Of a stretch of 26,316 nt of DNA, positions 11,672 to 12,864 are shown piece by piece. Made by a program: the position numbers and the translations under genes. The number at the start of each line of letters is the position of its first letter. Positions within the stretch are counted from its first letter, which is position 1. The notes beneath the pieces are model-generated. The model had not been told where the DNA came from, did no database searches, and saw only the letters and a list, made by a program, of their open reading frames with translations. This stretch comes from a virus. Where the stretch lies: positions 1 through 26,316 of the IMG/VR virus record IMGVR_UViG_3300010296_000068; one strand, 5' to 3'.

Positions 11672-11677
11672 CGGACA

Positions 11678-12424
11678 ATGATGAAGAAACGGTTGAGTGA
11701 GCGCGGCCTTGCGCTCATCGCCTTCTACGAGGCGAGTACCTCGCTCCAAACCCGAGACGGTTACGTTTGGTATCCCGGCGGTTACGACAACATCCCAGAC
11801 AAGTACTTGAAAGTTTATGCGGACCCGATTGCAACGAAGCCGATCCCTACGGTGGGTTTCGGGACGACGACGTATGACGTCAAAGGCTTGGAGGTCGGCC
11901 AGGTCTACAGCCAGGCGGACGTCATCAAGATGTTCGAAACGACGATAGGCACCTACGAGAAGGCAGTGAACAAGCACGTCACCGTCGAGCTGAACCAGAA
12001 CGAGTTCGATGCGCTCGTGTCGTTTGTCTACAACGTGGGTGTCGGTGCGTTTAAGGACAGCACGCTGCTGCGTCTTCTCAACCGTGGCCAACGTGTGCTG
12101 GCAACCGAGCAGTTCTATCGATGGAACAAGGCCGGCGGCAAAGAGCACGAAGGCCTCAACAAGCGCCGTGCCAGTGAGGCTGAGCTGTTCTCGTCACCAG
12201 TAAGCAAACCACGTGCAGACATCACAGAGAGTCGGACGGTTCGAGCAGCCGGTGCGCTGGGTGTTGTCGGGACAGTCACAGCAGTTGCGCCTGTGATCGG
12301 TCCGTTGGAGCAGGCAGCTACGTTTGTCGAGAACCACCTGTGGGTGGCCGGCTTAGCGGTTGCTGCAGTGGCGGTCTACCTGATCGCTGTGCGGTTTGAC
12401 GATTGGCAGAAAGGACGCCGATGA
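11678..12424 (+). CDS. endolysin, GH24 lysozyme (T4-type) with hydrophobic C-terminus
   Basis: This protein cuts the glycan strands of peptidoglycan at lysis. The catalytic layout of the GH24 family is present: Glu18 in FYEAS, Asp49 in YADP and Thr58 in PTVGFGTT. About 22 extra residues lie between Glu and Asp compared with T4 lysozyme. Later landmarks are NQNEFDALVSFVYNVGVGAF and FYRWNKAGGKEHEGLNKRR, both typical. The last 60 residues are unusual: a moderately hydrophobic stretch (about 187-206) and a clear membrane-like segment (about 217-235) followed by a basic tail, which would anchor it at the membrane. No cleavable signal is seen at the N-terminus. It starts six bases after scaffold and its stop overlaps the following small gene region. 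Confidence 0.9.
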   Translation: MMKKRLSERGLALIAFYEASTSLQTRDGYVWYPGGYDNIPDKYLKVYADPIATKPIPTVGFGTTTYDVKGLEVGQVYSQADVIKMFETTIGTYEKAVNKHVTVELNQNEFDALVSFVYNVGVGAFKDSTLLRLLNRGQRVLATEQFYRWNKAGGKEHEGLNKRRASEAELFSSPVSKPRADITESRTVRAAGALGVVGTVTAVAPVIGPLEQAATFVENHLWVAGLAVAAVAVYLIAVRFDDWQKGRR

Positions 12425-12425
12425 G

Positions 12426-12650
12426 ATGTTTGACGACATCAAGCGCATTGTCTTCAGCGTTGCGATCGGCTTGGCGGCTGTCGCGTATATCATCAGTACA
12501 ACGCAGGCGAGAACCAATGAACGCAAACGACTTGCAAAACACTTTACGGAGAAAGGGTACAATGCCCAAGCGGCTCGCCACCTTTCTCACACTGTCAGTG
12601 AGCGCGATCTTCGTCGCGAGCTGCACGAGCGTGGATGGCTCAGAGATTGA
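12426..12650 (+). CDS. small membrane protein, candidate inner-membrane spanin (Rz-like)
   Basis: A 74-residue protein with one N-terminal membrane segment (about residues 8-25, IVFSVAIGLAAVAYIIST), then a long, strongly charged helical part (ARTNERKRLAKHF to RRELHERGW). This N-in, C-periplasm layout fits an i-spanin, although it is shorter than lambda Rz (153). A holin-like role cannot be excluded. The ATG at 12426 lies just after the endolysin stop (TGA 12422-12424) and near the GGACGCC-type context; a longer frame from 12396 overlaps the endolysin and was not used. It overlaps the next gene by 89 bases in a different frame, the arrangement seen for Rz/Rz1. Confidence 0.65.
   Translation: MFDDIKRIVFSVAIGLAAVAYIISTTQARTNERKRLAKHFTEKGYNAQAARHLSHTVSERDLRRELHERGWLRD
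12548..12561 (+). promoter_or_regulatory. ribosome-binding site of the embedded lipoprotein gene
   Basis: GGAG at 12548-12551 and AAAGGG at 12552-12557 sit four to ten bases before the ATG at 12562, inside the coding sequence of the preceding gene. This decides the start of the embedded lipoprotein. Confidence 0.55.
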
Positions 12651-12762
12651 TCGAGCTGTCTGCGCATCCTGGCTACCGATCTACGCAAGTGCGGCAGATA
12701 CCGACCAGACGTTACGTCAGGTGTACGGATCTAACCTGGCACGCGCAGATTGGTGCAACTGA
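12562..12762 (+). CDS. lipoprotein, candidate outer-membrane spanin (Rz1-like), overlapping
   Basis: A 66-residue protein in the +1 frame relative to the small membrane protein before it. It begins MPKRLATFLTLSVSAIFVAS and then Cys21: a basic start, a hydrophobic core and a lipobox Val-Ala-Ser-Cys, which together form a lipoprotein signal. The mature part has Cys and Trp in CASWLPIYASAADT and ends RADWCN, a pattern I recall from short phage lipoproteins annotated near lysis genes. The arrangement, a lipoprotein gene starting inside and out of frame with a single-TM protein gene, is the known Rz/Rz1 layout. Role: with the i-spanin, it would fuse inner and outer membranes at the end of lysis. 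It implies a Gram-negative host. Confidence 0.75.
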   Translation: MPKRLATFLTLSVSAIFVASCTSVDGSEIDRAVCASWLPIYASAADTDQTLRQVYGSNLARADWCN

Positions 12763-12864
12763 GACAACCCTAACCGCAACGGCCCGACGTGCCTGTCGGA
12801 CAACCAAGAAGGTCAGCTGAGTCACAGTCATTTCCCCCTTATGTAGTTCTATTAGGAGGCCACA
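12763..12864 (+). promoter_or_regulatory. intergenic leader of the capsid gene, with strong ribosome-binding site
   Basis: This 102-base gap is the largest in the window. TAGGAGG at 12853-12859 lies five bases before the capsid ATG, the strongest Shine-Dalgarno match seen here, as expected for the most abundant virion protein. Upstream is a small inverted repeat (CCGAC 12784-12788, GTCGG 12795-12799) and a T/C-rich, A+T-rich stretch (12830-12850). These could hold a promoter, but no convincing -35/-10 pair or T7-type promoter is visible. Confidence 0.5.

Follow-up and report, generated by a model that had tools for sequence, protein, structure and literature searches.

The question raised by this locus is what is encoded by two short plus-strand reading frames that lie directly behind the lysozyme gene of a phage and in part share the same nucleotides. 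The window, i.e., the whole stretch of 26,316 bases analyzed here, is a virus record whose gene content reads as that of a T7-like podovirus in PHROG and Pfam scans, with primase/helicase, family A polymerase, portal (PF12236, E 6.4e-90), scaffold (PF05396), lysozyme, the overlapping pair and the major capsid protein (PF21703). The phage records closest to its portal belong to Roseobacter phages, Autographiviridae, at about 56% identity, and the window phage is T7-like and aquatic. A first-pass annotation of this DNA had placed a one-TM protein gene at 12426-12650 and a lipoprotein gene at 12562-12762 and had read them as a spanin-like pair; both frames were recovered exact to the base, encode 74 and 66 residues without internal stops, and very probably represent an overlapped two-component spanin.

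The pair is preceded by an endolysin gene of the phage lysozyme type (11678..12424, plus strand; PF00959, E 1.3e-35; PHROG endolysin, 1.5e-46), and the i frame begins one base after the lysozyme stop. By hydropathy, the lysozyme has a hydrophobic stretch at residues 190-208 and another at 220-238, both close to its C-terminus, and then a basic tail. No separate holin was found in the lysis cassette of the window, and a distant DNA search with the cassette recovered lysozyme pieces alone, in four phage records. According to the Enc34 paper (PMC8943055), a membrane domain of two C-terminal helices seems to be confined to Chivirus and its relatives; the layout of the PF00959 lysozyme of this T7-like phage is similar to the one described there. 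By eye, a similar tail layout was also seen in the CHAP endolysin of Roseobacter phage CRP-118 (L125) and in the amidase of Microcystis phage yong2 (L130). The tails of the window lysozyme and the yong2 amidase have weak common matches to PHROG 17373 (E 0.046 and 0.004, respectively), the full-length comparison of the two enzymes gave E 0.018, and tblastn searches with the lysozyme and amidase tails reached no other phage record. A C-terminal membrane tail shared by these two enzymes, likely as it looks by eye, is not claimed here, since BLASTP of the tails returned no alignment.

The o-spanin (12562..12762, plus strand) was assigned from its translation, lipobox, family match and alignment. 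Its 66-residue product carries a hydrophobic signal and the lipobox VASC at residues 18-21, the lipobox cysteine being Cys21 (Kyte-Doolittle and lipobox pattern), has two mature cysteines, C34 and C65, and is read from a frame without internal stops. The protein matches PHROG 1275 'Rz-like spanin' with E 1.3e-6, residues 5-66 falling on profile positions 5-70 of 81, and the same family was matched by 7/7 clade o proteins (best 4.9e-9). Across seven aligned o sequences the Ser-Cys of the lipobox is invariant and two further cysteines are conserved; a cysteine inside the signal peptide region occurs in L003, L033, L035, RHph_TM3_14A and ctEw122, and these five are left out of any figures for lipobox spacing or mature cysteines. 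According to our own pattern, this is the only plus-strand ORF of at least 40 residues with a lipoprotein-type signal in the 26.3 kb, two being present when both strands are counted. A tblastn search with the o protein gave seven weak matches (best E 0.05), three of which were later confirmed by PHROG 1275, while the o-profile search of genome contigs found no relative.

The ribosome-binding site and Val-Ala-Ser-Cys lipobox earlier ascribed to this gene were both located, the former as the Shine-Dalgarno-like GGAGAAAGGG at 12548..12557 (plus strand), a purine-rich run that is kept in an alignment of 15 sequences (the window and 14 loci); ahead of the o start, the relatives L033 and L034 carry AAGGAGGG in its place. 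At the position of 12562 the aligned codon is ATG in 11 sequences, GTG in two and CGG in two (L002:3718-3720 and L006:1018-1020), the latter two retaining the frame and the lipobox. Judging from the alignment, the o start of L002 and L006 must have moved, either to the ATT codon that immediately precedes the CGG or to the ATG that corresponds to 12517. An upstream in-frame ATG at 12517..12519 (plus strand) is indeed found in 11 of the 15 aligned sequences, including these two which lost the ATG at 12562, and if the o-spanin of a real spanin pair began there in the window, it would be an 81-residue precursor with a longer n-region. However, this ATG is missing from L033-L036, whereas the codon at 12562 is ATG or GTG in 13/15 sequences, with the Shine-Dalgarno-like run ahead of it. 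An o-spanin start at 12517 in the window is thus unlikely, and 12562 is retained as the most likely start despite its loss in two relatives.

The i-spanin candidate (12426..12650, plus strand) was delimited by translation, hydropathy and conservation in relatives, and a Shine-Dalgarno-like AAAGGA precedes its start (12410..12415, plus strand). The transmembrane check proposed for the 74-residue product returned one stretch, N-terminal at residues 8-26, and no other peak (Kyte-Doolittle); the protein has no cysteine and its frame no internal stops. Searches with the window i protein gave no significant family match (PHROG best E 0.12; Pfam best E 0.03, below the cut-off; NCBIfam none), and PHROG 1026 'Rz-like spanin' was absent from its matches at E up to 1. 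This family was listed weakly for 4/10 clade i proteins, with a best E of 0.027 (L035) and 0.53 for L033, and profile-profile comparison (hhalign) of the i-protein profile with four PHROG-1026-like proteins resulted in E 0.0015 at a probability of 17%. In tblastn searches of 50,697 phage records, the window i protein reached four Vibrio phages alone (E 0.6-2) and the L033 i protein nothing. Homology to known i-spanins is weak. Since no significant family match was obtained, the protein is called an i-spanin on the strength of its position, topology and conservation rather than of its family; the o-spanin, as its partner in the proposed pair, is supported by family match and conservation. The predicted structures of both proteins were of low confidence (pLDDT 52 and 55), with a helical tendency and two helices in the i protein. 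At 74 residues it is shorter than lambda Rz, which has 153 residues. The small size had earlier been entered as a caveat, which does not hold: the PHROG 1026 profile, one of short i-spanins, comprises 85 positions, the i candidates in five other phages measure 68-89 residues as delimited here, and the combined periplasmic lengths given by Kongari et al. (2018; PMC6139136) start from 62 residues.

These five phages show the same succession, an endolysin gene, a short one-TM frame and a lipoprotein frame that overlaps its end. Pseudanabaena phage Pam5, Rhizobium phage RHph_TM3_14A, ctEw122 and Microcystis phage yong2 were reached via the weak o-protein matches and Roseobacter phage CRP-118 through PHROG 1275; in Pam5 and RHph_TM3_14A, an extra small membrane-type ORF lies between the endolysin and the one-TM frame. 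Pam5 has its i partner in PHROG 1026 'Rz-like spanin' (8e-6) and its o partner in PHROG 1275 (8e-10), and CRP-118 showed matches to PHROG 1026 (8.6e-9) and, weakly, to PHROG 1275 (0.09). RHph_TM3_14A and ctEw122 match PHROG 1275 (2.4e-6 and 1.4e-6, respectively), their i frames having no match among the spanin families, and the yong2 pair was read from the sequence, outside the PHROG scan. Further scans for PHROG 1275 gave a weak match in CRP-804 and none in RHEph21, BB8, G002 and G003. Sizes and overlaps are approximate for RHph_TM3_14A, yong2 and CRP-804, in which the o start, and for ctEw122, in which the i start, is a cut of the open frame. The Pam5 pair of 78 and 70 residues, with an overlap of 98 nt in the +1 frame, resembles the window pair of 74 and 66 residues in having a PHROG 1275 o-spanin and the same order behind the endolysin; it differs in that the window i-spanin is too diverged for confident PHROG 1026 membership.

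It could be argued that the 74-residue protein, being short, with one transmembrane stretch, beside a lysozyme and devoid of a significant family match, is a holin or antiholin, and that the lipoprotein is an o-spanin with some other partner. Nevertheless, its gene overlaps that of the o-spanin as i-spanin genes do, and the Pam5 gene in the same place is the PHROG 1026 'Rz-like spanin'. Moreover, the 40.8 kb relative G001, which bears the pair, has two other short membrane-type ORFs of 68 and 102 residues (L131:2704-3176, minus strand) that adjoin the small terminase gene and could serve as holins; the T7 holin sits at about this position, by the terminase genes. These two ORFs had no holin family match, their hits being to PHROG 29088 (E 0.0094) and PHROG 10540 (E 9.1e-15, the 102-residue ORF), both families of unknown function, so that they are possible holins, and the idea of the 74-residue protein as holin is weakened, not refuted, by them. 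On balance we regard that idea as quite improbable and retain the 74-residue protein as the i-spanin candidate.

The two genes share 89 nt (12562..12650, plus strand), with the o-spanin read in the +1 frame of the i-spanin and continuing 112 nt beyond the i stop. That the 66-residue frame is open by chance can practically be dismissed: when the i gene was recoded synonymously at random 100,000 times, about half of the versions (49,202) retained an open +1 frame, but just 1,487 still carried a lipoprotein signal, the product matches PHROG 1275, its lipobox cysteine and two other cysteines are conserved, and the non-overlapping o tail is under strong purifying selection. The latter was seen from Nei-Gojobori counts in 11 sequence pairs (10 sequences translated), in which non-synonymous changes per site were fewer than synonymous ones in both single-coding parts. 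For window and L003 the values were 0.11 vs. 0.54 in the i-only part and 0.05 vs. 0.51 in the o tail, for window and L010 0.10 vs. 0.54 and 0.05 vs. 0.58, and for L033 and L035 0.29 vs. 0.59 and 0.16 vs. 0.51. In the i-only part, saturation was nearly reached in the two pairs that are furthest apart (0.52 vs. 0.63 and 0.47 vs. 0.65). These counts indicate that purifying selection acts on both single-coding parts, and strongly on the o tail. Within the overlap, most pairs showed a lower synonymous rate of the i frame (0.10 vs. 0.30; 0.19 vs. 0.54 for window and L003; 0.10 vs. 0.54), but this was not so in L033-L035 (0.72 vs. 0.59), L034-L036 (0.77 vs. 0.59) and window-L035 (0.67 vs. 0.65). Joint reading of the two frames is the simplest account.

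One small contig group was recovered whether the query was the lysozyme, o protein, capsid or either of the two profiles. With each profile, o or i, 15 loci were detected, on one and the same set of 15 IMG/VR contigs, three of the i-profile matches (L119-L121) starting at residue 19. Relatives with stops in one of the two frames, named earlier as the finding that would speak against the pair, were sought and none were encountered: in contigs chosen by capsid at identities of at least 83% (13 full-length capsids of 83-100% and one partial of 97%), the pair was intact in 14/14, and the frames of the 10 translated sequences had no internal stops. Contig 3300007539_000124 is identical to the window in the pair region and therefore not independent. 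At capsid identities of 59% or less the scaffold-capsid junction mostly carries other genes, as judged from 18 of 68 listed capsid loci, four in the group of the window and 14 more distant. The junction itself (window 11672-12864; L037-L041, L062, L075, L079) is variable in content: the group of the window has the lysozyme and the spanins there, an HNH endonuclease is annotated in CRP-118 and CRP-804, L062 has a lysozyme-like frame together with a one-TM frame and a lipobox frame in overlap, and in L075 and L079 an 84-residue frame is overlapped by a lipobox frame.

The survey of Kongari et al. (2018; PMC6139136) describes 528 two-component spanin systems, of which 182 are embedded, 228 overlapped and 118 separated. 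In the window, the o-spanin starts inside the i-spanin in another frame and ends beyond it, the i protein has a single N-terminal transmembrane stretch and the o protein a lipobox cysteine (pattern test); the pair is hence an ordinary overlapped two-component spanin, of a kind already known. It is like the overlapped class as described in that survey, including P2 LysB/LysC and Dinoroseobacter phage DFL12phi1, in having a one-TM i-spanin and then a lipoprotein o-spanin that starts inside and ends beyond it, as well as no cysteine in the former and two in the latter. This 0/2 combination is given there as the commonest one, and the T4 spanin pair, which shares it, is stated to require both o-spanin cysteines. 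The presumably periplasmic parts of the window pair amount to about 48 and 45 residues, approximately 93 together, so that size and cysteine content are typical and inside the published combined range of 62-300 residues. For DFL12phi1, the overlap of 116 nt in the +1 frame was reproduced here, as compared to 89 nt, likewise +1, in the window, and its i-spanin has 110 residues instead of 74; no sequence similarity to the spanins of P2 and DFL12phi1 was shown, and the DFL12phi1 pair matches other PHROGs. The comparison with lambda Rz/Rz1, made in the first-pass annotation, stands as a functional analogy and with respect to a +1 lipoprotein gene that begins within the i-spanin gene. It is inexact as to arrangement, because Rz1 lies wholly inside Rz, in the embedded class of the survey, whereas the o gene here runs 112 nt past the i stop, and a lambda-type embedded pair was rejected on this ground in favor of the overlapped, P2-like class. 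A unimolecular spanin, i.e., one protein with both a lipobox and a C-terminal transmembrane stretch, was likewise rejected, as there are two separate frames and the signal is the sole hydrophobic stretch of the lipoprotein.

In spanin systems, as also summarized in the survey (PMC6139136), cutting of the peptidoglycan allows the two periplasmic parts to meet and the membranes fuse. By analogy with this established biology, we propose that the 74-residue protein would be an inner-membrane protein whose C-terminal half reaches into the periplasm, the side of the membrane taken by this tail being deduced from other spanins, and that the 66-residue protein would receive its lipid on Cys21 and be held in the outer membrane, with disulfides probably formed by its other two cysteines, C34 and C65. 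After cleavage of the peptidoglycan by the lysozyme, the periplasmic parts would bind, and the inner and outer membranes would be drawn together and fuse, releasing the virions. More speculatively, and with a rather low probability in our estimation, the miniature overlapping spanin pair and a lysozyme whose C-terminal tail anchors it to the membrane may behave as a single compact lysis unit, relocated to the scaffold-capsid junction of this phage group, in which the o start of L002 and L006 shifted, to the non-standard ATT or to the upstream ATG, while the gene stayed functional. If true, L002 and L006 would represent an overlapping gene that changed its start yet remained functional.

The practical worth of the pair lies in annotation, as it is easily missed by automatic annotation. 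The earlier remark that gene calling often overlooks the second gene of such pairs agrees with the survey, in which the o-spanin was unannotated in 196/528 systems (Kongari et al., 2018; PMC6139136), and with the records examined here. None of the five records of Pam5, RHph_TM3_14A, yong2, ctEw122 and CRP-118 has both genes annotated, the lipoprotein being missing as CDS in Pam5, RHph_TM3_14A, yong2 and CRP-118. In ctEw122 (L128:2308-2577), the reverse of the usual omission was observed: the lipoprotein is annotated and the overlapping one-TM frame is not. The DFL12phi1 record lists the lipoprotein from a later start, 9382 rather than 9238. As none of the six annotated records examined has both genes fully right, short overlapping spanins in aquatic and soil phages are probably under-counted, which is in agreement with the estimate given in the survey (PMC6139136).
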